From: Myxococcales bacterium
Lineage (GTDB): Bacteria > Myxococcota_A > UBA9042
Length of the DNA: 32,010 bases
Assembly (NCBI GenBank): GCA_023954815.1
Contig: JAGSHB010000059.1
Coordinates: forward strand, 1 to 32,010
Reading direction: 5' to 3'
In this document: piece by piece, positions 3,185 to 25,012 of the stretch
How the letters are laid out: each line of letters opens with the position of its first letter
How positions within the stretch are numbered: the first letter of the stretch is position 1
Notes under the pieces: generated by a model
The model's input: the letters and a program-made list of their open reading frames with translations, nothing else
Databases searched by the model: none
Told to the model about the DNA's origin: nothing
Position numbers and translations under genes: made by a program

Positions 3185-4786
3185 ATGGCCACCGGTGGCG
3201 CCTCGTCCGCTCGCACCCTCCGCGTTGTCACCATTTTGTTGGCGGCCAGCGCGCTCTTGTCGCGGCTCATGGGCTACGGGCGGGATCTACTGCTCAACAG
3301 CCTCTACGGTGCTACCGAACTCACCGACATCTACCGGGCCTCCTTCACCGTGCCCGACATGCTCAACTACCTGCTGGCCGGTGGGGCGCTGACCGTCAGC
3401 TTGCTGCCGCAGATGAGCCGAGTGTACGCCCGCCTCGACGCCGCACAGCCAGCAGGTTCCCCGCCGGTGACCCGCCACCCAGACGTCGACCGGGTCTTCT
3501 CGAAGATCGCCTCCACGTTGCTGGTCGCTGTCACCATCGGTGTCATCATCGGCGAGATCTTCACCGAAACGCTCGTCGGCAAGATCGTTACGGGCTTTTC
3601 AGCCGAAGAAATCAAGGAAACAGCGCGGTTGACGCGTATCGTCTTGCCCGCGCAGATCGCCTTTATCTTTGGCGGCCTGGTCCAGGCGACGCTGCTCTCC
3701 AGGCAACGATTTGGCGCCCTCGCTCTCACTCCGCTGCTGTACAACGGCGGCATCATCGTAGGTGGGGCCATCGGAGCGTATTTCGATGCCATCGAGGGCT
3801 TTTCGTGGGGGGCGCTGATCGGTGCTGTCGTGGGTGCATTGATCGTCCCCGTCGTCGTCGCCCGAGATCAGGTGCGTTTTCGGCCGCAGCTGCCCTCGCT
3901 CAACAAGGAGGTGCGCACCTTCCTGTGGACTGCCGCGCCGCTCATGATCGGCGTCAGCCTGACCACGGTGGACGAGTGGCTCGGGGTCCATTTTGGATCT
4001 CATCTGGCAGAGGGCTCGATCTCCTGGCTCAACAGCGCTCGGCGGCTCATGTTGGTGCCCATTGGGCTCATCGGTACCGCTGCGGGTCAGGCCACTGGCG
4101 CCTACGTCGCGCGCCTGCATGCCGAGGGGCAGCGCGACGAGCTGGCGAAGCTGCTCGGTACGTCGCTGGCGGCGGTTGCGGCGCTGTCCCTGGTCGTCTC
4201 CGCCTTCATGATGGCCGTGCCCACGCCGATCGTCGGGTTGCTATTTGAGCACGGACGCTTTGGCCCTGACGATACGTTGCAAACCGCCGCCGCCCTTGTT
4301 CCCTTGAGCGCTGGCATCGCCGCGTGGTCGGCTCAGGCGGTGCTGGCTCGGGCGCTCTATGGCGTCGGAGATACGTGGCGGCCCATGTTCGCCACATCGG
4401 CCGTGACGCTGGCTATTTTCCCGATTTATTCGTGGTCCGCGCGCTTTGGCATCGTTGGTCTGGCGGCCGCTGGCAGCCTCGGCATGCTGTTGCAGGTGCT
4501 TACGTTGGCTTGGCTCGCTCGTCGCCGTTTGGGGCTGGATGTGCGTGCCATCGGGGTAGGGGTGCTTCGCGCTATTCCGGTCGCCGCGTTGGCGGCGCTC
4601 GCCGCGTGGGGGGTGGAGTCGGCGCTCGTTGGCGAGCTGCACGGTCTCGGAAGCTCTCTGACGTACGGGGTTCGCCTCGTCTCTTCAGGGCTCGCTTGGC
4701 TGCTCGTTGTCGCCGTGATGGGAACATGGCTCGGCCTACCCGGGTTACAGACCGTGAAAGGGCGCTTGCTCAGGCGGTTTATGTAA
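3185..4786 (+). CDS. murJ: Lipid II flippase MurJ (MviN)
   Basis: This is a MOP-superfamily polytopic membrane protein that moves lipid II across the inner membrane for peptidoglycan synthesis. At 533 residues with about 14 hydrophobic segments, it has the family length. The N-terminal part shows the MurJ pattern: RLMGYGRDLLLNSLYGA, then FTVPDMLNYLLAGGAL and a SLLPQMSRV block. The region around LSRQRFGALALTPLLYN also matches the family. A polar insert of about 25 residues, rich in Pro and Ala (near residues 80-105), lies between the second and third hydrophobic segments. The ATG at 3185 follows the cyclophilin stop after one base. With uppP and the amidase nearby, this end of the window is an envelope-biogenesis neighbourhood. 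Confidence 0.93.
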   Translation: MATGGASSARTLRVVTILLAASALLSRLMGYGRDLLLNSLYGATELTDIYRASFTVPDMLNYLLAGGALTVSLLPQMSRVYARLDAAQPAGSPPVTRHPDVDRVFSKIASTLLVAVTIGVIIGEIFTETLVGKIVTGFSAEEIKETARLTRIVLPAQIAFIFGGLVQATLLSRQRFGALALTPLLYNGGIIVGGAIGAYFDAIEGFSWGALIGAVVGALIVPVVVARDQVRFRPQLPSLNKEVRTFLWTAAPLMIGVSLTTVDEWLGVHFGSHLAEGSISWLNSARRLMLVPIGLIGTAAGQATGAYVARLHAEGQRDELAKLLGTSLAAVAALSLVVSAFMMAVPTPIVGLLFEHGRFGPDDTLQTAAALVPLSAGIAAWSAQAVLARALYGVGDTWRPMFATSAVTLAIFPIYSWSARFGIVGLAAAGSLGMLLQVLTLAWLARRRLGLDVRAIGVGVLRAIPVAALAALAAWGVESALVGELHGLGSSLTYGVRLVSSGLAWLLVVAVMGTWLGLPGLQTVKGRLLRRFM

Positions 4787-5631: not shown

Positions 5632-6507
5632 ATGCCCGAGCTCCCCGAAGTCGAAACCGTACGCGCTTGGCTCGCACCATCTCTCATAGGCGCGACCCTT
5701 CAGCGCGTGCAGCTGCAGCGGCCCGATCTGCGCTACCCCATCCCAGTCGATGCGGTTCATCACCAAGTCGGCCGGGCGATTGGGGCCGTACGGCGGCGGG
5801 CCAAATACCTACTCATCGATCTCGTAGATCCGTCCAAAGCCGAGACGGAGCGCGACGGCGATGTCTCGTCCCTGCTCATTCATCTCGGCATGTCCGGGCG
5901 ATGTTGGCTTGACGTCACCCCTACGCCCGATCCGCCTTGGCGCAAGCACGAACACTGGCGCATGTGGTTTTCCCACGCGGACGGGACCGCGCTGCTGCGC
6001 TACCAGGACGCGCGCCGCTTCGGTGCCTTGGACGTCGTGCGCGATCCAGCCAGTCACAAACTGCTGACCAAACTGGGCTATGAGCCCTTCGATCCGGCCT
6101 TTTCGGGCGCATGGCTCTATGAGGCCACACGTGGTCGCAAAGTCGCCATCAAGTCGTGGTTGATGGATAGCCGCCGTGTCGTCGGCGTGGGCAACATCTA
6201 CGCAAGCGAAGCCTGTTGGCGGGCGCAGGTCGATCCGTTCAAATCGGCAGGGAAAGTCGGGCGAAAAGCTTGTGATCGGCTCGTGATTGCCGTGGTGGAC
6301 GTGCTGCAAGAGGCCATTGCGGCGGGCGGGTCAACGCTCAAGGATTTTGTCGGCGGCGACGAGAACCCGGGCTACTTCCAGCAGCGACTCGATGTGTATG
6401 GCCGAGAGGGGCAGCCGTGCCATCGCTGCGAGGATGCGGAGATCGTGGTGGCGCGCCGCGTCTTGCTGGGCCGGGCGACCTTTCTCTGTCCACGGTGCCA
6501 GCGCTAG
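5632..6507 (+). CDS. mutM: Formamidopyrimidine-DNA glycosylase
   Basis: This is a base-excision repair enzyme that removes 8-oxoguanine and formamidopyrimidines and nicks the strand by beta,delta-elimination. The N-terminus MPELPEVETVRAWL is the family signature, giving the catalytic Pro2 and Glu3 after Met removal. RRRAKYLLIDL carries the conserved Lys, and LLIHLGMSGR follows. The helix-two-turn-helix GVGNIYASEACWRAQVDP and the C-terminal zinc finger (CHRC ... CPRC) are both intact. At 291 residues it is slightly longer than usual because of two short inserts, near residues 63-75 and 90-105. An unconserved 96-base gap separates it from the lipoprotein gene. It converges on the minus-strand gene at 6511 with only three bases between the stops. 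Confidence 0.96.
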   Translation: MPELPEVETVRAWLAPSLIGATLQRVQLQRPDLRYPIPVDAVHHQVGRAIGAVRRRAKYLLIDLVDPSKAETERDGDVSSLLIHLGMSGRCWLDVTPTPDPPWRKHEHWRMWFSHADGTALLRYQDARRFGALDVVRDPASHKLLTKLGYEPFDPAFSGAWLYEATRGRKVAIKSWLMDSRRVVGVGNIYASEACWRAQVDPFKSAGKVGRKACDRLVIAVVDVLQEAIAAGGSTLKDFVGGDENPGYFQQRLDVYGREGQPCHRCEDAEIVVARRVLLGRATFLCPRCQR

Positions 6508-13510: not shown

Positions 13511-15925
13511 ATGATGTTCCCCCGTTGCTTCCCCCTCACCTCGCGCGCAGTGCTGTGCATGGCGTTGATCGCCGGTACGTTGGCAGCGCCGCTGACCACC
13601 GTCGCTCAGCCTGGTGACGCAGCTAAGCCAGCCCCCACGGCTGAAGAGAAAAAGGCCGCCGCTGCGAAGGCGCGCGCCGAGCTAAAAGTCCGCAAGAAAG
13701 CCGCAATCATCGTACGAAAGGTCATTTCAGCGCCGCCCGGAACCGATCGCTACCGGCTCGTCGATCAGCTGATCGACCTAGGGGACGCGGCATGGCCCGT
13801 CGTCGACGGCGCCATCGCCAAGTTCATCGCCCTGAAGGAAGGGGAGTCAGTCGCGGTCGATCTGCTGCTGGGCTTTATGGACTTGAGCTACAGCGCGGTC
13901 GAGCGCCACGTGGCCGGTTTTTCTCCCCCTGCCGCCCGGCGGGTGGTGAAATTCGTGCTGCGTCTCGACGCCGACAAACGGCAGCTCGGCGTGCTGCGTA
14001 AACTGGTCCCCAGCAAGGACGCCGACGTCCTGCTCATGGTCCTACCGGCCCTGCTCCAACACGAGCGGGGCATGGTCATGGCGCGGCTCGTGGAGATCGT
14101 CGACGACAAGCGTGAGTCCCTGTCCTCATGGGCCATCGACACCATCGCGACCCATCGTCACGCTCCGGCATTACCGACCCTGGTGCGGCTCATGGGTATC
14201 GAGAAGCGTCGGGCCACAGCGCGCAATTTCGATCGTCGCCGCAAGTTGATTCACGCGATCTCTCGTATCGGTGGCGAGGCTGCAGTGCCGCCGTTGCTGG
14301 AAGCTTTGAGCATCCCCGATCAGCGTCCATCGGTGTACGAGGGCATGCGCATCGTCGGACAACCGGCGGTGCTCGCCGCCCTGTTTATGCTGCGTACGGC
14401 GACCGGCCCGCGCATTGCCATCGCCATGAACATGCTGGCCCACATGCGCCACGAGGCAGCGCCGCACCTGGTCACGCTTCTGAGCCGCGGCGACCGCAAC
14501 ACCCGCGATCTGGCCTTGGATGTGCTCACGCGCATCGCCACACCGGATGTTCGGCCCCAACTGCTGAAGATGGTCAGAGAGAAGAAGTTCGCTGATGTGC
14601 GTGATGGCGTTCGGCTGCTGGTGACCCTGTACAACGCCGATGTTCGCAGCTTGATGTTTGGCTTGTTGGAGCACAAGAACCCGGAAATTAGGCGGTTCAT
14701 CGTCGAGCAGTTCTGGCGTTTACGCGATCCAAAGACCTTCCGTGTTCTTCGCGTCGTCGCCGCCCAAGACAGCGACAGGCAGGTTCGCATCGATGCGGTG
14801 AGAGCCGTCGCCGGCGTGGGTGATCCAGCGGGACCGGAGCTACTTGAGCGCATGGTCGCCGACACGGATTCGTTGGTTCGGCTCGAAGTGGTCGAGCAGC
14901 TCAGTCGCGTCGGCAATTGGCGCACCGCAGTGAACGCCATGGCGACCTTGCTCGCCGATCCCAACGACGAGATCTTCCGGGCGACGCTGGCCGCATTGCA
15001 GCGCATGACGTTTTCGCGCAAGCGCCGCCGGGCGGCCTCGTGGCGTGGTTGGGTCGCCGCAGAAAAAGCCCGCAAGCCAGCCGCTTTTGAGGGGCTGACA
15101 CCAGACGAAGTCGCCTTTTCCGCTGGAAAATGGCGCTTTGCGGCACAGCAGGCCGGCACTGATGGACCGACAATCTTGGTGGTCTCTGGACCGCCGTTTC
15201 GTGATGCGACCCATATGGCGCCCTACATCTGGCAGCTGCGCGGGGCGGCTCGTGTCGTCGTCATGCGCCGGGCCCCGGGCACCTTCCGGTCCGCCACGAT
15301 GACACAGCGGATTTGGTCGCGGGAGCTCGATGCCATGGCACGGGCGGTGGGTGCGCGGCGCTACACCGTCCTCGCCGACGCAGCCGGTGCGGCCTATGCC
15401 TTGCGCCACGCAGCAGCGCGCAAGTCTGTGCAGTCCGTGGTGATCGAAGGTGGCTGGCTGCCGAGTCGAGCGGCGTTGCGAGCGCTGCCAGAGCAATTGA
15501 AGAAGACCATGGGCCCGCTCGGGCTTGCGGATTGGACGTGGGCGCAACAGGCCCAGTGGCAGCTGCACCCCGGCGTGCGTCGCCGCATCGCCCTGCGGGG
15601 CGTCTGGCGCGGCCTCCTCGGCGCCACCGCAATGGGCATCCGGTTGCCCCTCGACGGTGTGCTAGCCAGTGATGCGTTGACCGACGCCGTCCGACACCGC
15701 GTGGCGGGAATCGTCGACGGTGTGCGCCTACGCCGCGTGAAACAGCGCGTGCTGCTCTTGATGGGAAGCAAGGCGCCTTGGGCAAAGACGACCGAAGAAG
15801 CCGTCAAAACCCTCGGCAAGCGAAGCAAAGTTCAGGTGAAGACGATCGTGGGTGCGGGCGCGCTGCCGCTGTTTGAGCGTGGATCGGCGAGCGTGGATGC
15901 GATCGGCGAGTTCGTTCAGCGATAG
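13511..15925 (+). CDS. Exported HEAT-repeat protein with degenerate alpha/beta-hydrolase domain
   Basis: A signal peptide (SRAVLCMALIAGTLAAPLTTVAQ) leads into a Lys/Ala-rich coil and then a HEAT solenoid from about residue 75 to 510 (for example RQVRIDAVRAVAGVGDPAG and DSLVRLEVVEQLSRVG). The last 260 residues resemble an alpha/beta hydrolase: VVSGPPFRDATHMAPYIWQL, ARVVVMRRAPGTFRS, a nucleophile-elbow-like stretch, the strand VLLLMG, and a final block KTIVGAGALPLFE. At the elbow (GxSxG in active enzymes) it reads ADAAG with Ala624 in the nucleophile place. Where GH is expected near the end it has Gly783-Ala784. The fold may therefore be a binding module rather than an enzyme. The ATG at 13511 follows the HTH gene stop directly and has GGAG (13500-13503) seven bases upstream. 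An ATG three bases later is possible. Confidence 0.75.
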   Translation: MMFPRCFPLTSRAVLCMALIAGTLAAPLTTVAQPGDAAKPAPTAEEKKAAAAKARAELKVRKKAAIIVRKVISAPPGTDRYRLVDQLIDLGDAAWPVVDGAIAKFIALKEGESVAVDLLLGFMDLSYSAVERHVAGFSPPAARRVVKFVLRLDADKRQLGVLRKLVPSKDADVLLMVLPALLQHERGMVMARLVEIVDDKRESLSSWAIDTIATHRHAPALPTLVRLMGIEKRRATARNFDRRRKLIHAISRIGGEAAVPPLLEALSIPDQRPSVYEGMRIVGQPAVLAALFMLRTATGPRIAIAMNMLAHMRHEAAPHLVTLLSRGDRNTRDLALDVLTRIATPDVRPQLLKMVREKKFADVRDGVRLLVTLYNADVRSLMFGLLEHKNPEIRRFIVEQFWRLRDPKTFRVLRVVAAQDSDRQVRIDAVRAVAGVGDPAGPELLERMVADTDSLVRLEVVEQLSRVGNWRTAVNAMATLLADPNDEIFRATLAALQRMTFSRKRRRAASWRGWVAAEKARKPAAFEGLTPDEVAFSAGKWRFAAQQAGTDGPTILVVSGPPFRDATHMAPYIWQLRGAARVVVMRRAPGTFRSATMTQRIWSRELDAMARAVGARRYTVLADAAGAAYALRHAAARKSVQSVVIEGGWLPSRAALRALPEQLKKTMGPLGLADWTWAQQAQWQLHPGVRRRIALRGVWRGLLGATAMGIRLPLDGVLASDALTDAVRHRVAGIVDGVRLRRVKQRVLLLMGSKAPWAKTTEEAVKTLGKRSKVQVKTIVGAGALPLFERGSASVDAIGEFVQR

Positions 15926-16093: not shown

Positions 16094-19000
16094 ATGGTGG
16101 TCCCAACAAGCGCTTTGAGCTGCTCAAACCGCCGCCAACCCGCGACTTTTACCGCAGTTTTGCGGTTGATTAGCGCCATTTTGGCTGCGCTCACCGTGGT
16201 TGCTGCAGGTACCGGGTGCCAGGGCAGCGAGGTGAGCACTGGTGCGATGCCGGTGGTGCAGTCGCTCGACACGACCGGCGGCAAGATCTCCGATCCGTTG
16301 TGGCCCGACCCGACCTGCGTCGCTGATTCCGATTGCGCCGCGCTCATCACCAACCCGTGCGCACGGGCCATCTGCAACCCAAAATCCAATCGCTGCGAGG
16401 CCGGCACGCTGCCCGACTTCTCGGTTTGCTCCGGCGGCGGGCCGTGCGCTGCGGAAGCTGCGTGCTTGTCGGGCGTCTGCGTGCCGCTCAAGACCGACGA
16501 CTGCAACGACGACAACCCGTGCACTCGAGACGAGTGCGATCCCGCCAACGGCTGCACACACAGCCCCAAAACCTTGGCGCCCTGCAGCGACGGAAACCCA
16601 TGTACGGCAGGTGACCACTGTGCCGATGGCGCGTGTAAAGCTGAGCTCGATCTCTGTGAATGCAGCGCCGATGCAGACTGCGCAGGCGCGTCGAACCCCT
16701 GCCTTGGCAAGCTGATTTGCTCGGCTGGCGCGTGTGTGGTGGATGCTGCGACCGCCGTCGATTGTGACGATGGGAATCCCTGTACGACCGACGGCTGTGA
16801 GGCAGGCAAGTGCACCCACGACGCGAGCAAGGACAACACCCCGTGTGACGATGGCAACCTCTGCACCCAGGGCGAACGCTGCCTCTCGGGGAGCTGTGAA
16901 GGCTCCTCGAAGCTGCCGTGCGCGGTCAATAGCGACACCTGCCCCACCGAGACCTGCGACCCCAAGTTGGGTTGTGTCCCGGCAACTGACGGCAGCAGCT
17001 GTGACGACGGAAACGCCTGCACCAAGGACGACGCCTGCACCAAAGGCGTCTGCGGTGGCACTTCGACCTGCTCCTGCACCAAAGACGCCGATTGCGCCGG
17101 GGAGGCCGATGTTCCGGCCTGTTTCGGGCAGTTGGTCTGTCGGGCGGGAACTTGCGAGGTCGATCCCAACACAGCTGTGCCCTGCGGACCCTCAGGCCAG
17201 CCGTGCATGATGAATCTGTGCACCGCCGCTGGCTGTAAGCTGACTTCCGCGCCCGCGGGATCGCCTTGTGAGGACGGAACCGCCTGCACCTGGGGAGATG
17301 CGTGCACCGGCGGCGGGTCCTGTCAGGGCGGTGCGGCACCGTCGTGCGATGACGGGATCACCTGCACCAACGACGCGTGCATCCCTTCTGTTGGCTGCAT
17401 CAACGGCCCTGGTAGTGATGGCATCGCTTGCGACGATGGCTTGGCCTGCACGACCGGCGACGCTTGCAAGGACTTGACTTGCAGCGGGACGCCAACCGGC
17501 TGCGATGATGGCGACCCTTGCACGACCGACTACTGCGGCCCATCGGGCGCGGGCTGCATCAACAAGCCGGTGGCCGAAGAGGCGGCTTGTGACGATGGCG
17601 ACCTGTGCACCAGCGGCGAGCGCTGCACGTCGGGGCTGTGCACACCGCTGATCATCCAGGATTGCGATGACGGCAACGTGTGCACCTTGGATTTGTGTGC
17701 CGGCGGAGACGTGTGCAGTCACCCTGCGGCGGTGACCGTGACCACATGCGACGACGGCGACAGCTGCACCACAGAAGACACGTGCACCGATGGTCAGTGC
17801 AGCGGCAAGGATGGCGGGTGCCAGTGCAAGAGCAACGCAGACTGCGGCGCGTTCGAGGATGCCGACCTGTGTAACGGGCTGCTCATCTGCCAAAATAACA
17901 GCTGCGTGGTCGACCCAGCGACGACCGTGACATGCACCGATAGCGACAACCCCTGCGTGACCGTCGCGTGCCAGCCGCAGACGGGGCTTTGCAGCGAAAA
18001 GGCCGCGATCGCGGGCGATAAGTGCGATGACGGCAACGCGTGCACCCAGGGTGAGACCTGCCTCGCCGGGGGTTCATGCGGCGCTGGCAAGGCGGCGGTT
18101 TGCGACGACAAGGACAGCTGCACGAGCGACACCTGTGATCCGACAACCGGGTGCAAACACACGCCGGTGAAGGCCTCGGCTGGGGTGCCTTGTGATGACG
18201 GTAACGCGTGTACCCAGGGTGACGTGTGTGATGCGGGCGGTTGCAAGGCGGGCAAGTACACCTGCCAATGCGAAAAGGATGCGGACTGCGCCGCCTACGA
18301 CGACGACAACCTGTGCAACGGCGGGCTGGTTTGTGAGGCCGGGGCGTGTGTCTCCGATGGCAAAGCGGTGACCTGCGATACGACCGGGCAGGGGCCGTGT
18401 ACCGACGTCGTCTGTCTGCCGCAGACCGGCACCTGCACCACCGCGGTCAAGGGCGATGGTGAGGCATGCAAGCTGGACGGCGCTTGTGGGCAGGGCGGCA
18501 CCTGCCAGGCCAACCAGTGTGTCTCCAGCAGCCAATCCCCCTGCGATGACGGCAATGGTTGCACGGTTGATAGCTGCGAAAATGGCACGACCTGTAAACA
18601 CACGATCAAGCCGGGGCTGTCCTGCGATGATGGCGACGAATGCACGGAGGGTGATGTCTGTGCGGACACGGGGGCGTGCGGTAGCGGCAAGGACGTCTGC
18701 AGCTGCACAAAGGACGCTGACTGCCCGGACGACGGCGATCTCTGCAATGGCGTTCAGGCCTGCATCGCCGGCAAATGTGCGGTGAAAGTTGGCTCGCCCG
18801 TGTCCTGCGATACCTCGGGGGATGGCGCCTGCAAGACCACGGCGTGTGTTGCGGCGACAGGAAAATGCAGCACCACCGTCGCGCCAGCGGGCACAGGTTG
18901 CGATGACGGGGACGCGTGTACGTCGGACTCGGTGTGCGGCGCGGGCGATTGCGCTGGCGGCGCGAAAGTCGACTGCGATGACAACAAACCCTGCACCGAT

Positions 19001-22000
19001 GATGGCTGCAATCCGGTCAGCGGCTGCTACCACACCAACAGCATCAAGGGCTGTGACGATGGCAATGTGTGCACCACGGGCGATGTCTGTGCTGGCGGCG
19101 TTTGCCAGAGCGGGCCGAACACCTGCGAGTGCAAAACGAAGGCCGATTGTGCGAGCAAAGACGACGACAACCTCTGCAATGGGGTGATGGACTGTACCGG
19201 CGGCAAGTGCGCGCTCGATCCGAACAGCTTCGTGGTCTGCGATGGCGCTGGCGACACCGATTGTGCGGCGAATCTCTGTGAGCCCAAGACCGGCAAGTGT
19301 TCGCAGACGCCCTTCCCCAACGGCACGGCGTGTACGGACAACTCAGTTTGCTCGGCGAAAGATCAGTGCACGGATGGCAAGTGCACGGGCGATGCGGTGA
19401 GCTGCGATGACGACAACCCGTGTAGCGATGATAGCTGTGACGCACAGACCGGCTGCAAGAACGTCGCGAATCAAGCGGCTTGTGATGATGGCAACGCGTG
19501 TACCGAGGGCGATATCTGCACGGGCGGATCTTGCAAAGCTGGCAAGGACACCTGCGGGGAGTGCACGACAGATAGCGATTGTGCTGACAAGGACGACGGC
19601 GATTTGTGCAACGGCACCCTGATTTGTCAGGCGAAAAGCTGCCAACTCGCTGCTCCGGTGACGTGTACGGATGATGGCAACGCCTGCACCACAGCGCAGT
19701 GTCAGAAGACCAACGGCAAGTGTGAGCAGATCGTCGCGATCGACGGCGCGGCATGTGACGACAACACCCTCTGCACCGGGTCGAGCAGCTGCCTGAGTGG
19801 GTCGTGTGTGGGCGCCAACCCGGTCGATTGTGATGACGGCGAGTCGTGTACGGCTGACGCGTGCGATCCTGCCGAGGGCTGCACGCACGCTGCCCAGATT
19901 GGCCAGCCCTGCTCTGACGGCAACGCCTGCACGCAGCCGGACCTCTGTGGACCTCAGGGATCGTGCGTCGGCGGCATCAACACCTGTGAGTGCAAAGTCG
20001 ATAGCGACTGCAAAGACGATGGCGACCTGTGCAATGGCACGTTGGCTTGTGTGAGCAACACCTGCCAGATCAAGACAGGGTCGGTGGTGGTCTGTGATCC
20101 GAGCCAGAACACGCCGTGCCGTGACAATGTGTGCGTCAAGACGACCGGCAAGTGCGAACTGCAGACCGAACCGCAGAGCACGCCGTGCAATGACGGAAAC
20201 CTCTGCACGCAGGGCGACACCTGCTTCAAGGGCGCGTGCGCGGGCGAGCCGATTCAGTGTGGCGATGACAACGTCTGCACCTTCGACAGCTGCGATAGTA
20301 AGAAGGGCTGCACACAGATCCCGCAGGATGGCGTCTTTTGTGATGACGGCAACGTCTGCACCAAGAATGACGTCTGCAAGGGCGGCACCTGTGAGGGCGG
20401 CGACAACGCCTGCGAGTGCAAGACGACGGCTGACTGCGCCGCGCTCGAAGACGGCAACCTCTGCAATGGCACGCTGATTTGCGACAACACCCAGTGCGTT
20501 GTCGACGCCAAGACGGTGGTGGTGTGCGGCACGCCCGGGGTCTGTCAGGCCAACGCCTGCGAGCCCAAGACGGGCAAGTGCAGCAGCGGACCTGCCAAGG
20601 ACGGCATCGCGTGCGGCGGTGATGCGCTGTGCGGCGGCGTGGGCACCTGCCAAAAGGGCAGCTGTGCCGGTGACCACGGCTGCGCTGACGACGGCAATCC
20701 GTGTACGTCGGCGGCGTGCGACGGCGAGGGTAACTGCACCACAGAACCGAAGAATGCACCCTGTGATGACGGCGATTTGTGCACGGTTGGAGATGTGTGC
20801 ACGGGCGGAAAATGCGCGCCAGGCAACAACGAATGCCAATGCAAGACAGATGGCGACTGCACCGGCTTTGACGACGGCAACCTCTGCAACGGGATCTGGC
20901 GCTGCGGCGCAGGCGGAAAATGCGCCTTCGACCCGAAATCTCAGGTCGTTTGCGCGCCATCAGCTGATCTGTGCGCCACCAATGCGTGCGCGACCAAGAC
21001 TGGCAAATGCGTGCTGCAGAGCAAGCCCAACGGCGCCTCGTGTGCCGATTCGGACGCCTGTACGACCGACGAGCAGTGCTTCGCTGGCAAGTGCGCGAAG
21101 AAGTCACTGGATTGCGACGACAACAACACCTGCACCAATGACAGCTGCGACAAGCAGACCGGCTGCGTCAACGCGCCCACGGGCGGCATCTCGACGTGTG
21201 ATGACGGCGACAAGTGCACCCCGGTGTCGTTCTGTCAGGGTGGCAAGTGCGTGGCGCCGATCAACACCTGCTTCTGCCAAAAAGATACCGATTGCTCAGA
21301 CGACAACAACCTCTGCAATGGCACGCCGACTTGTCAGGGCAACCAATGCAAGACCGATCCCAAGACCATCGTGACGTGCGACACCAGCGGCGATGGGCCG
21401 TGCGAGAGCTCGCAGTGCGTCCCTGTGACCGGCAAGTGCATCAAGACGCCCAAAGCGCCCGGCACCGGCTGCAACGACGGCAGCGCTTGTACGGCGGCGG
21501 ATGTGTGCACCATCGGCATCTGCGTCGGCATTCCGCTTAGCTGTGACGATAAGTTGAGCTGCACCAAGGACGCCTGCGATCCAAAATCGGGCTGCACGAC
21601 CGTGCCCGACGACAAGGCCTGCGACGACGGCAACCCTTGCACGACCGACGCTTGCGACAAGCTCGCTGGTTGCGTGGCCACGCCATCGGTCAATGAGCCC
21701 TGCGACGACGGCAACGCCTGCACCACCGATGAGCGCTGTTTGCTAGGCGCCAAGGGCGTGAGCTGCACCGGCGGGGCGAGTCTCGACTGTGATGACGGCG
21801 AGATCTGCACGACCAACAGCTGCGACAAGGCAAAGGGCTGCGTCACGACGTCGCTGCCTGGTAAGACCTGCGCAAAGCCCGATGGCTGCAGCAAGGGTGG
21901 CACCTGCGACGTGGCGGGCGATTGTGTGGTGACGGCCGTGTTGTGCAACGACGGCAACAGCTGCACGGACGATAGCTGCGATGTGAACAAGGGCTGTGTG

Positions 22001-23545
22001 TTCTTGCCCAATCAGGTGAGCTGCTCCGATGGGGACGCGTGCACCAACGGCGATGCCTGTGATTCAGGAACCTGCAAGGCCGGACCGAAATCCGACAACT
22101 GCTGCGCCAAAGACGCCGATTGCACAGATGATGCGTGCGAGGTGGCTGTGTGCAAGGCGGGGCAGTGCACGACCACGGGACCGGTCGATTGCGACGACGG
22201 CAACGCGTGCACCACCGAGGTCTGTGAGTCGGGCAAGGGCTGCGTTGTGGTCAACAACAGCCTGCCCTGCGATGACGGCGACAACTGCACCAAACCGGAC
22301 GCTTGCTCGGGCGGTAAATGTACGGGCAGCAAGATCAGCTGCGACGACGGAAACTTGTGCACAAACGACGCGTGCGGGGCCTTAGGCTGCACCCAGACGC
22401 CGAACACCAACCTGTGTAACGACGGCGATCCGTGCACGCTACTCGACCGCTGTCAGGCCGGAAAATGCACCGGACAGTTCAAAATCAACTGTGATGACGG
22501 CAAGGTTTGCACCGACGATAGCTGCGGACCGGTGGGTTGTGTCAACGCGAACAACAGCGCGGTCTGCAACGACAACAATCCGTGTACAAGCGGCGATAAG
22601 TGCGCGGGCGGCAGCTGCAAGGGCACCACGACGAACTGTGATGACGGCAACGGCTGCACGACCGATGTGTGTGACGCCAGCAAGGGCTGTCAGCATGTGC
22701 CCAACGCCGCGCCGTGCTCGGATGGATCGCTCTGTACCGGGCCTGATGTGTGCGCGAAGGGCAACTGTGTCGGCAAGGCGATTAGCTGCGATGACGAGAA
22801 CGTCTGCACGCAGGATGTGTGCACGGCGTCGGGTGGCTGCAACAACACGGCGATGAGCGATGGGACGGCATGCGGAAAATCGGGCATTTGCCTGTCGGGG
22901 ACGTGTTCGGTTGGCTCCGACATCAACCCGGCGCTGTCGTGCAAGGACGTGCAGAGCAAGGTGCCGGGCGCTAAGAGTGGCAGCTACTTCCTCGATCCGG
23001 ACGGCAAGGGGCCGGGGGCTGTCTACGACGTCAAGTGCGACATGACGCGCTTTGGCGGCGGTTGGATGGTGCTCGATGTGGCGGAGGTCCACCGCTTGAT
23101 GGCGATGAAGACCCTCGTGGCCGGGGGCATGTGCACGTTGACGAGCTCCGAGTGGAAGACGTGGGACCAATTCGATGGTGCGACGGCTAACAACCACTTC
23201 TGCGTCGCTGAACCGAAGGCAGGGATCGCTTGGCCGACCTACACCGAGATGCGGATCGACGGCGTCAACCTCATTGGCTACACCGGCGGCGGCAACAACA
23301 CGTTCGATGCCTACTCGAACTGCTACGGCGCGTCGTGGCAGGGCAACTTCTGTGTCGGGCCGAGCCTGGAGCTTAAGCCGATGAACTCGAGCGATATTCA
23401 GCTGAGTAACGGTCAGGTCTCGCCGACGTACAACGCGAGCTTTACGTTGAGCCAGCCGCGCACTGAGTTTCAGGTCCGCACCCGCGAGGAAGGGCCGCAA
23501 CTCGAAGGTGTTCGCTGGCAAACGGGTGCGATTTTACTGCGCTAG
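16094..23545 (+). CDS. Giant CTDC-repeat Cys-rich surface lipoprotein with fibrinogen-like C-terminal domain
   Basis: The protein has 2483 residues. A signal (FTAVLRLISAILAALTVV) ends in AAGTGC, with Cys42 as a possible lipid-anchor site. From about residue 70 to 2270 it is made of modules of the C-D-D-G-N-x-C-T-x-D-x-C type, matching the Dictyostelium CTDC repeat (Pfam Dicty_CTDC). By eye there are about 51 modules, 28 with exact CDDG. They are grouped in a larger unit marked by a DxDC...NLCNG block. The C-terminus (about 2283-2483) begins SCKDVQSKVPGAKSGSYFLD and contains KCDMTRFGGGW (Cys2315, Trp2324), the bacterial fibrinogen-like YCDxxxxGGGW domain. The rest of that domain lacks an obvious fibrinogen calcium site. 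The ATG at 16094 has AAAGG seven bases upstream and starts the signal. The frame is open from 15965. The likely role is a long disulphide-rigid stalk carrying a binding head; substrate and function are unknown. Confidence 0.85.
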   Translation: MVVPTSALSCSNRRQPATFTAVLRLISAILAALTVVAAGTGCQGSEVSTGAMPVVQSLDTTGGKISDPLWPDPTCVADSDCAALITNPCARAICNPKSNRCEAGTLPDFSVCSGGGPCAAEAACLSGVCVPLKTDDCNDDNPCTRDECDPANGCTHSPKTLAPCSDGNPCTAGDHCADGACKAELDLCECSADADCAGASNPCLGKLICSAGACVVDAATAVDCDDGNPCTTDGCEAGKCTHDASKDNTPCDDGNLCTQGERCLSGSCEGSSKLPCAVNSDTCPTETCDPKLGCVPATDGSSCDDGNACTKDDACTKGVCGGTSTCSCTKDADCAGEADVPACFGQLVCRAGTCEVDPNTAVPCGPSGQPCMMNLCTAAGCKLTSAPAGSPCEDGTACTWGDACTGGGSCQGGAAPSCDDGITCTNDACIPSVGCINGPGSDGIACDDGLACTTGDACKDLTCSGTPTGCDDGDPCTTDYCGPSGAGCINKPVAEEAACDDGDLCTSGERCTSGLCTPLIIQDCDDGNVCTLDLCAGGDVCSHPAAVTVTTCDDGDSCTTEDTCTDGQCSGKDGGCQCKSNADCGAFEDADLCNGLLICQNNSCVVDPATTVTCTDSDNPCVTVACQPQTGLCSEKAAIAGDKCDDGNACTQGETCLAGGSCGAGKAAVCDDKDSCTSDTCDPTTGCKHTPVKASAGVPCDDGNACTQGDVCDAGGCKAGKYTCQCEKDADCAAYDDDNLCNGGLVCEAGACVSDGKAVTCDTTGQGPCTDVVCLPQTGTCTTAVKGDGEACKLDGACGQGGTCQANQCVSSSQSPCDDGNGCTVDSCENGTTCKHTIKPGLSCDDGDECTEGDVCADTGACGSGKDVCSCTKDADCPDDGDLCNGVQACIAGKCAVKVGSPVSCDTSGDGACKTTACVAATGKCSTTVAPAGTGCDDGDACTSDSVCGAGDCAGGAKVDCDDNKPCTDDGCNPVSGCYHTNSIKGCDDGNVCTTGDVCAGGVCQSGPNTCECKTKADCASKDDDNLCNGVMDCTGGKCALDPNSFVVCDGAGDTDCAANLCEPKTGKCSQTPFPNGTACTDNSVCSAKDQCTDGKCTGDAVSCDDDNPCSDDSCDAQTGCKNVANQAACDDGNACTEGDICTGGSCKAGKDTCGECTTDSDCADKDDGDLCNGTLICQAKSCQLAAPVTCTDDGNACTTAQCQKTNGKCEQIVAIDGAACDDNTLCTGSSSCLSGSCVGANPVDCDDGESCTADACDPAEGCTHAAQIGQPCSDGNACTQPDLCGPQGSCVGGINTCECKVDSDCKDDGDLCNGTLACVSNTCQIKTGSVVVCDPSQNTPCRDNVCVKTTGKCELQTEPQSTPCNDGNLCTQGDTCFKGACAGEPIQCGDDNVCTFDSCDSKKGCTQIPQDGVFCDDGNVCTKNDVCKGGTCEGGDNACECKTTADCAALEDGNLCNGTLICDNTQCVVDAKTVVVCGTPGVCQANACEPKTGKCSSGPAKDGIACGGDALCGGVGTCQKGSCAGDHGCADDGNPCTSAACDGEGNCTTEPKNAPCDDGDLCTVGDVCTGGKCAPGNNECQCKTDGDCTGFDDGNLCNGIWRCGAGGKCAFDPKSQVVCAPSADLCATNACATKTGKCVLQSKPNGASCADSDACTTDEQCFAGKCAKKSLDCDDNNTCTNDSCDKQTGCVNAPTGGISTCDDGDKCTPVSFCQGGKCVAPINTCFCQKDTDCSDDNNLCNGTPTCQGNQCKTDPKTIVTCDTSGDGPCESSQCVPVTGKCIKTPKAPGTGCNDGSACTAADVCTIGICVGIPLSCDDKLSCTKDACDPKSGCTTVPDDKACDDGNPCTTDACDKLAGCVATPSVNEPCDDGNACTTDERCLLGAKGVSCTGGASLDCDDGEICTTNSCDKAKGCVTTSLPGKTCAKPDGCSKGGTCDVAGDCVVTAVLCNDGNSCTDDSCDVNKGCVFLPNQVSCSDGDACTNGDACDSGTCKAGPKSDNCCAKDADCTDDACEVAVCKAGQCTTTGPVDCDDGNACTTEVCESGKGCVVVNNSLPCDDGDNCTKPDACSGGKCTGSKISCDDGNLCTNDACGALGCTQTPNTNLCNDGDPCTLLDRCQAGKCTGQFKINCDDGKVCTDDSCGPVGCVNANNSAVCNDNNPCTSGDKCAGGSCKGTTTNCDDGNGCTTDVCDASKGCQHVPNAAPCSDGSLCTGPDVCAKGNCVGKAISCDDENVCTQDVCTASGGCNNTAMSDGTACGKSGICLSGTCSVGSDINPALSCKDVQSKVPGAKSGSYFLDPDGKGPGAVYDVKCDMTRFGGGWMVLDVAEVHRLMAMKTLVAGGMCTLTSSEWKTWDQFDGATANNHFCVAEPKAGIAWPTYTEMRIDGVNLIGYTGGGNNTFDAYSNCYGASWQGNFCVGPSLELKPMNSSDIQLSNGQVSPTYNASFTLSQPRTEFQVRTREEGPQLEGVRWQTGAILLR
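16655..22200 (+). repeat. Tandem super-repeat inside the giant gene, period about 143 codons (430 bp)
   Basis: A CxC..DxDC...NLCNGxLxC marker block starts at residues 188, 326, 576, 724, 869, 1011, 1154, 1298, 1440, 1581 and 1726. A shortened copy lies at 2003. From 576 to 1726 the spacing is 141-148 residues in every interval. Each unit contains the marker block, a CTxGDxC module, a CTxDxCDxxxGC module and another CTxGDxC module. Copies are diverged at the DNA level, apart from short shared runs such as tgtgatgacggcaac. Confidence 0.8.
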
Positions 23546-23598
23546 GAGCGTGCTGCGTAATTAAAATTACTGTCGCAGCACGCTCCTAGTTTTCTTTT
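23542..23598 (+). terminator. Rho-independent terminator of the giant gene
   Basis: The arms 23542-23557 and 23574-23589 are a perfect 16-bp inverted repeat (ctaggagcgtgctgcg). The 16-base AT-rich loop contains its own 5-bp pair. TTTTCTTTT follows. The left arm includes the stop codon of the giant gene. Confidence 0.9.
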
Positions 23599-23770: not shown

Positions 23771-23911
23771 GCAATCGTGTACTTTCCGCCGCCTCGCGCC
23801 ATTTGCTGGAGGCGAGCCCCGCCATTTTGTAGGGTGCAACCGGGTTTCCCAACCCGCGTGCCCAGACCACTTCGCCGCGCCCATCAGCGGCATACCACGG
23901 AGACAGCGATA

Positions 23912-25012
23912 ATGAAGCGCTACCTACTACCCGTATTGCTCGTGACGTTGTTCGCGGCCCCTGCCTTTGCTGAGTCCGCTGGAAATCAGACTGACGCTGG
24001 CACGACCCTTCCCGCCGACACGACCGGCACCTCTGACGCGGTCACGCCTCCGGATGATACGACCGGCACGACCGACCCGCTGTCCTGCATGGGTCGCTGC
24101 GGCGCCTACGTCAAAGAAGCGAAGTGCCAGTGCGACAGCGCTTGCGAGAAAGAAGGCGACTGCTGCAAGGACATCAAGACCATCTGCGTCGCGGGTGTCT
24201 GCGGCAACGGCAAGTGCGAGGCCGATAAGAAGGAAGACGAGACCACCTGCAAGATCGACTGCTTGGTCTGCGGTGACTTCATCTGCTCGAAGGGTGAAGA
24301 GAAGACCTGCGCGAAGGATTGCGACAACGGTGGTCAGTTCAACGACATCAAGTGCTGGGACGAAAAGTGCGTGAAGGAAACCAAGGCGTGCAAGGACGAC
24401 GCGGACTGCAACAAGTTCGTGAAATGCATCAACAGTGGTGCTGAGAAGTGCGAAGAGAAGCTCGGCTTCAGCAAGGAAGTTAGCGAAAAGGTCGGCAAGC
24501 TCTTCGACGCCCTCCAGAAGTGCGGTTACGCCGCTTGCACCGACCCCACCGGCGACAGCTGCAAGGACCGCTGCGGCAAGTACGACAAGGCGAAGGCCTG
24601 CCAGTGCGACGACGGCTGCGGTGATTTCAAGGACTGCTGCTCGGACTACGAGAAGCTCTGTGGCGGCTCGGCGTGCAAGCCTGAGTGCACCGGCAAGGCC
24701 TGTGGCGACGACGGCTGTGGTGGTAAGTGCGGTACCTGCGACGCGACGTCGACGTGCAGCGCTACGAACCAGTGCGTGCCCACCGGTGGCTCTGCTGATG
24801 CTGGTAGCTCGGCCGACACTGGCACGTCGACCACGACGGACGCTGGTACGGCTACCGACGCTGGCACCGGCGGCACGGGCGGCGGCACCACGGCTGCACC
24901 CAAGTCGAGCAGCGGCTGCACCGCAGCACCGACAAGCAACGGCGCCCTGCCGTTCGCGCTCGTGTTGAGCCTGCTGGCCGGCGCGCTGCTGCTTCGTCGT
25001 CGCGACGCGTAG
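23912..25012 (+). CDS. Exported protein with two somatomedin-B domains and MYXO-CTERM-like tail
   Basis: A clear signal peptide (KRYLLPVLLVTLFAAPAFA) is followed by a Thr/Asp-rich linker. The first somatomedin-B domain spans about residues 59-93 (CMGRCGAYVKEAKCQC ... DCCKD) and the second about 217-250 (CKDRCGKY ... CQCDDGCGDFKDCC). Between them are a CGNGKCE/CGDFICSKGEE pair and a spacer with four cysteines. A CGDDGCGGKCGTC motif, common in this bacterial group, comes after. The C-terminus has Cys336, a hydrophobic stretch (345-361) and RRR (362-364). This resembles the MYXO-CTERM sorting tail of myxobacteria, so surface attachment by processing at the Cys is likely. The ATG at 23912 has GGAG nine bases upstream and begins the signal peptide. 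Somatomedin-B domains in animals mediate protein binding (vitronectin, ENPP). The ligand here is unknown. Confidence 0.85.
   Translation: MKRYLLPVLLVTLFAAPAFAESAGNQTDAGTTLPADTTGTSDAVTPPDDTTGTTDPLSCMGRCGAYVKEAKCQCDSACEKEGDCCKDIKTICVAGVCGNGKCEADKKEDETTCKIDCLVCGDFICSKGEEKTCAKDCDNGGQFNDIKCWDEKCVKETKACKDDADCNKFVKCINSGAEKCEEKLGFSKEVSEKVGKLFDALQKCGYAACTDPTGDSCKDRCGKYDKAKACQCDDGCGDFKDCCSDYEKLCGGSACKPECTGKACGDDGCGGKCGTCDATSTCSATNQCVPTGGSADAGSSADTGTSTTTDAGTATDAGTGGTGGGTTAAPKSSSGCTAAPTSNGALPFALVLSLLAGALLLRRRDA

Follow-up and report, generated by a model that had tools for sequence, protein, structure and literature searches.

A giant predicted lipoprotein of CTDC repeats with a partly fibrinogen-like head, and the expansion of CTDC repeats in its class of Myxococcota

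Results

The gene and its surroundings

We analyzed a window of 32,010 nucleotides (positions 1 to 32,010 of contig JAGSHB010000059.1, forward strand) from the Myxococcales bacterium assembly GCA_023954815.1. The window holds a complete gene for a 2483-aa CTDC-repeat protein at 16094..23545 (+), with an ATG at 16094 and a stop codon ending at 23545; the ORF, its length and its coordinates are as given in a preliminary description of this DNA. The mature part of the protein has a calculated mass of ~243 kDa and a pI of ~4.05. A Shine-Dalgarno-like AAGGTGA lies just 5′ of the start. A sigma-70 promoter scan found none, and a plasmid search was likewise empty. Directly 3′ of the stop is an intrinsic terminator (23541..23590, +), a hairpin with a 17-bp stem (−34 kcal/mol, z −7.6) followed by TTTTCTTTTC and its T run, which the terminator scan overlooked because of a 16-base loop.

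Upstream, at 13511..15925 (+), is a conserved HEAT-repeat protein whose C-terminal part looks alpha/beta-hydrolase-like by eye. Downstream, at 23909..25012 (+), a separate transcription unit encodes a conserved protein that combines two somatomedin-B domains with a MYXO-CTERM tag. Both neighbors belong to a syntenic block: a full-length ortholog (L048/L160) lies in full synteny, which runs from HEAT, transporter and kinase genes on the upstream side to those for somatomedin-B, SDR and carboxylase on the downstream side, some of them named by eye. Somatomedin-B is an animal-type module, and this neighbor is kept beside the CTDC gene in relatives with a sequence only ~37% identical. Ordinary genes recognized by eye elsewhere in the window include a MutM-like glycosylase (5632-6507) and a MurJ-like flippase (3185-4786).

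Residues 1-42 (16094..16219, +) form a signal peptide with a lipobox, Cys42 being the predicted acylated residue of a conserved CQGSEV. The preliminary description had called this lipobox possible. This copy has Gly at position −3, an uncommon residue there, and the site aligns with clear lipoboxes in two orthologs, VAGC and LSGC, with QGS after each. The protein is thus predicted to be a bacterial lipoprotein, from its signal peptide and a lipobox Cys conserved in orthologs. A short linker follows (residues 43-74; 16220..16315, +), with no Cys between 42 and 75.

Repeats, cysteines and constraint in the stalk

The whole protein contains 348 Cys (14% of residues) and 285 Asp. It had been described as carrying about 51 C-D-D-G-type modules with 28 exact CDDG; we counted the same 28 and, with different search patterns, between 50 and 54 four-Cys modules. 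Shuffles that preserve the composition of the protein had 1.2 modules on average and never more than 5, against 50 observed. Dicty_CTDC (PF00526), the model of the 24-aa CTDC repeat, matched the whole protein in 22 stretches with 124.9 bits against a gathering cut-off of 27 (E 1e-36). This was the sole match in a Pfam scan of all 2483 residues, in which no EF-hand or TSP3 model matched.

The stalk (residues 75-2280) has 340 Cys and the head (residues 2281-2483) has 6, both even numbers. By its Cys positions, a first stalk block spans residues 75-187 (16316..16654, +). It is followed by eleven super-repeats led by CxC, or in one case CxxC (residues 188-1868; 16655..21697, +), of ~143 aa and 22 Cys each. 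Ten of them measure 138-148 aa with exactly 22 Cys, and the second, with an extra four-module block, has 250 aa and 38 Cys. Simple alternating four-Cys CTDC units, recognized by PF00526 matches and the module pattern, then run up to the head (residues 1869-2280; 21698..22933, +). This 143-aa order of modules had been missed in the preliminary description, as had the existence of dozens of such proteins in the genome.

Super-repeats are 38-53% identical among themselves, but each shares 55-69% identity with its positional counterpart in the G055 ortholog, whose super-repeats are colinear with these one to one. Since positional identity exceeds identity within the protein, the array is older than the split of the two species, and recent tandem duplication of the super-repeats is ruled out. 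In a second relative, G239, the CxC-led super-repeats number only six, so stalk length varies by whole units.

We compared stalk residues between these proteins. All 316 aligned stalk Cys are conserved in G055 at a stalk identity of 65.5%, and 255 of 258 are conserved in G239 at 52% identity. For other stalk residues the figures in G055 were 80% for Asp, 82% for Gly, 51% for Asn and 37% for Lys. The retention of Asp and Gly above Asn and Lys, together with the low pI and the number of Asp residues, would fit a rod stabilized by calcium, in which the Asp and Gly of C-D-D-G-N bind Ca2+ much as thrombospondin type-3 repeats do, and stiffness comes from calcium and not from disulfides between modules. 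Conservation of Cys is complete, however, and exceeds that of Asp, and the models for known calcium-binding repeats of this kind, EF-hand and TSP3, found nothing in the protein. We regard calcium as the determinant of stiffness as somewhat unlikely; a calcium-stabilized rod is in any case compatible with, and does not exclude, an adhesin on a disulfide rod.

Predicted shape of the stalk

The structure predicted for three super-repeats is not globular, with beta-hairpins following one another in a chain (pLDDT 76, pTM 0.28), which bears out the extended repeat block that the preliminary description had expected from modeling. Because the repeat model is only of moderate quality (pTM 0.28), straightness and stiffness of the stalk are tentative. 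When the model was compared with the PDB, only four structures had E values below 0.001, and all were the Entamoeba Gal/GalNAc lectin heavy chain (E 1e-5). The Foldseek TM was ~0.1, so the match to the amoebal arm is local, and a PDB profile search with the CTDC repeat sequences returned no match and no sequence relation to that arm.

In the Gal/GalNAc lectin, the arm consists of 20-35-residue modules with four Cys each; the first and fourth Cys are bonded to each other inside a module, and the second and third link it to the modules before and after it, which makes the arm rigid (PMC12948311). CTDC units match these modules in size and in Cys number. We offer it as a hypothesis, not a result, that by analogy CTDC units may pair between modules in the same way.

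The C-terminal head

The head (residues 2281-2483; 22934..23542, +) has a fibrinogen/intelectin-like N-terminal subdomain with the motif KCDMTRFGGGW, followed by a diverged beta-rich part. An NCBIfam scan of the whole 2483-aa protein returned nothing, so the head has to be scanned apart; alone, it matched GGGWT_bact (NF040941), a 46-position fibrinogen-like YCDxxxxGGGW domain, with 54.7 bits against a cut-off of 30. Both models that the preliminary description had proposed as a check, Dicty_CTDC and GGGWT_bact, therefore match.

Beyond this subdomain the fibrinogen likeness fades. The full Fibrinogen_C model (PF00147) reached 18.6 against a gathering score of 22 and covered no more than residues 29-74 of the head stretch, and the COLFI model fell below its cut-off. 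A profile search with the head found intelectin-1 (E 4e-7), fibrinogen beta and procollagen propeptides, in nearly every case through the N-terminal subdomain, and the ligand-binding half of intelectin was not covered. The structure model of the head is good (pLDDT 89, pTM 0.74). With it, Foldseek found the procollagen C-propeptide and carbohydrate-binding modules (CBMs) at E 1e-5 to 1e-3 and TM ≤0.5, and none of the solved fibrinogen-fold structures superposed well (TM ≤0.44). The fibrinogen-like terminal domain proposed earlier thus holds for residues ~2281-2340 and fails for the remainder. After roughly its first 60 residues, the head is, to judge from the model, a diverged beta-rich fold that plausibly serves as a binding module.

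Head identity exceeds stalk identity in both comparisons, at 80% versus 65% in G055 and 66% versus 52% in G239. Nineteen heads from the genus and family could be aligned, each with CTDC units directly before it. Among 379 sampled genomes of the phylum, matches to the full head (E <1e-40) came from 17 of the 22 genomes of its own family, and the matches listed include none from elsewhere; outside the family mostly only the first ~75 head residues matched. A head more conserved than its stalk, together with the retention of nearly all aligned stalk Cys, is what a disulfide scaffold with a fixed binding head would predict.

The same figures bear on the idea of a kin-discrimination receptor, in which a polymorphic head would sort self from non-self like TraA. 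Myxococcus TraA does have the same plan, a lectin-like domain with a Cys-rich stalk (PMC3325183). Here, however, the head is alignable across genera and the protein is without PA14, TIGR04201 or MYXO-CTERM, and kin recognition through a variable receptor is disfavored, since a polymorphic receptor would be expected to show the opposite, a head less conserved than the rest. We consider it very improbable.

CTDC proteins across the genome and the class

A scan of genome contigs with the whole 2483-aa protein yielded no more than three named loci. A catalog drawn from selected stretches of the 6.4-Mb genome lists ~84 CTDC-rich ORFs, 55 of them complete and 29 cut by contig or stretch ends, and some of the cut ORFs may be parts of one gene. 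Together they contain 1638 module matches, compared with 20 in shuffles, and amount to ~117,000 residues, ~5% of the genome. A lipobox-like motif is present in 44 of the 55 complete ORFs. Heads or inserts on the paralogous rods include NHL and RCC1 propellers and LamG/concanavalin-like, MAM-like, legume-lectin-like and CARDB domains. With dozens of rods carrying different heads in one genome, the rod appears to be a generic display arm. We also noted three CTDC proteins in tandem on contig C147 (L055), each of ~2000-2170 aa with a C-terminal region of ~1140 aa; the one scanned with Pfam (L055:7986-11417) gave no match.

The preliminary description had suggested searching Myxococcota for the same architecture. 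Besides the full heads in the family, PF00526 matches occurred in 52 of 52 sampled genomes of the class. First-look candidates numbered 77-2969 per class genome, with a median of 303 per Mb in the protein's own family versus 4.3 per Mb in a hand-transcribed set of 50 genomes outside the class (~70 times the density of other Myxococcota); these counts are loose, and in the protein's own genome all 150 candidates that were scored passed the cut-off. The combination had been called unusual at this scale, which does not hold within its own lineage, given the number of CTDC-rich ORFs and the family-wide head. Dictyostelid genomes encode 7-17 CTDC proteins each (PMC4931340, Table 4). No paper on a bacterial CTDC expansion turned up in the literature searched; such papers may exist elsewhere. 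The expansion across the class is more surprising than the architecture of the 2483-aa protein itself.

So large a dose of rods per genome could also mean matrix glue: whether shed or anchored, the rods would become cross-linked to form a coat outside the cell or a biofilm matrix, like EcmA and EcmB in the Dictyostelium sheath and stalk, with the head serving assembly. The Dictyostelium CTDC proteins do belong to the matrix (PMC4931340), and one of the best fold matches of the head is to an assembly domain, the procollagen C-propeptide. The lipobox in most copies, on the other hand, points to anchoring of single molecules, and the many different heads, mostly of binding-domain type, fit recognition better than one uniform sheet. 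On balance we think this explanation unlikely.

Disulfide-forming enzymes

We found 33 DsbA matches in the genome. Three are triple-DsbA proteins in which each domain has an intact CPFC or CPYC site (L175:2370-4493, −; L176:3-1832, −; L178:5023-7356, +), and the first of their genes lies just upstream of a 3568-aa CTDC ORF on contig C58, on the same strand. Three further ORFs of 841-900 aa, on G000 contigs C194, C34 and C212 (L174:2663-5185, L180:3347-6046 and L181:4338-6869), join VKOR to DsbA. Pfam scans of two of these gave the order VKOR, DsbA, FGE-sulfatase-like and thioredoxin (AhpC/TSA), and the third is alike by eye. Such fusions amount to an unusual all-in-one oxidoreductase.

DsbA density was 4.3 per Mb in the family versus 2.8 outside the class in a comparison that ignores phylogeny, and within the class it correlated with CTDC density (rho 0.50, phylogeny again ignored). 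Other Myxococcota have many DsbA copies too. Because the tests ignore phylogeny and the rest of the phylum is rich in DsbA, the enrichment is support, not proof, for reading the stalk as a disulfide rod.

A protein with this much Cys might instead sequester Cu, Zn or other soft metals as a giant extracytoplasmic metallothionein, and one paralog stretch has weak Cu-binding_MopE similarity. But the Cys are spaced at 5-6 residues with hairpins and not clustered in CxC/CxxC pairs, their counts per super-repeat are even, and the protein is exported in a genome rich in DsbA. Metal binding as the function is hard to credit.

Discussion

On its sequence, the 2483-aa protein is a real, well-conserved giant rod lipoprotein, and we give a probability of about 0.6 to its being a surface adhesin made up of an anchor, a disulfide rod and a ligand-binding head. 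The lipidated N-terminal Cys42, as predicted, would tie the protein to a membrane, most likely the outer membrane. The four-Cys CTDC modules are predicted to fold as a chain of beta-hairpins, which disulfides within and between neighboring modules, made by the expanded DsbA/VKOR machinery, may stiffen. The stalk would then hold the fibrinogen/intelectin-like head off the cell, where it could bind a conserved ligand that is most likely a glycan or glycoprotein on prey, on neighbors or in a shared matrix. A rigid, disulfide-dense stalk with a terminal recognition domain was the earlier interpretation as well; with matches to both models and a predicted hairpin chain it stands as the best reading, minus the kin role through a variable receptor.

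A broader proposal is more tentative, possible but short of probable. It holds that this class of Myxococcota turned the CTDC module into a general-purpose disulfide-ladder display arm, filling ~5% of the genome with dozens of long rods and interchangeable heads and relying for them on dedicated multi-domain DsbA and VKOR-DsbA oxidases, and that CTDC repeats and the amoebal Gal/GalNAc lectin arm share one inter-module-disulfide architecture in amoebae and bacteria. CTDC repeats have been discussed as a feature of the Dictyostelium matrix, their structure unsolved (PMC8078820, PMC4931340). If the proposal is true, the largest users of the module would be uncultured bacteria and not slime molds (~84 CTDC-rich ORFs versus 7-17 proteins per dictyostelid). 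It would also supply a structural hypothesis for the CTDC repeat and a bacterial route to very long and stable extracellular rods, account for the unusually high count of DsbA-family oxidases, and open to testing whether the parts common to matrix proteins of amoebae and bacteria go back to descent, to transfer or to convergence.

Judged by score, the protein is a member of PF00526 and of GGGWT_bact. The dictyostelid CTDC proteins (EcmA, EcmB, PsiA and PsiF) belong to the same repeat family by HMM and are likewise secreted, Cys-dense and extracellular, some of them also with a lectin-like PA14 domain. Unlike them, the protein described here is bacterial and a predicted lipoprotein, bears a GGGWT head, and has its modules ordered in a 143-aa super-repeat. 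The intelectin and fibrinogen-related domains (FReD) share the CDMxxxGGGW of the N-terminal subdomain of the head, which gave the intelectin-1 match. The C-terminal part of the head matches neither intelectin nor fibrinogen models, and the fold similarity over the full length is weak.

The arc and arm of the Entamoeba histolytica Gal/GalNAc lectin heavy chain are, like the predicted stalk, a chain of small beta modules. That lectin differs in being a transmembrane-anchored heterodimer with its sugar site in the light chain, and has no detectable sequence similarity to CTDC repeats.

TraA, an outer-membrane receptor of Myxococcus xanthus, is an example from Myxococcota of a like plan, with a lectin-like domain on a stalk of Cys-rich repeats. 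Its authors noted a resemblance to the slime-mold PF00526 and proposed a rigid Cys-rich stalk (PMC3325183). In TraA a PA14 head is N-terminal, the repeats are TIGR04201 and a MYXO-CTERM anchor is C-terminal, whereas here a lipobox anchor is N-terminal, the repeats are PF00526 and the fibrinogen-like head is C-terminal. Membership in the TraA family is ruled out by scans of the whole 2483-aa protein with Pfam, for PA14, and NCBIfam, for TIGR04201 and MYXO-CTERM; TIGR04201 scored above its cut-off only in the C58 paralog. As far as sequence can tell, then, the protein works like TraA, yet is no TraA.
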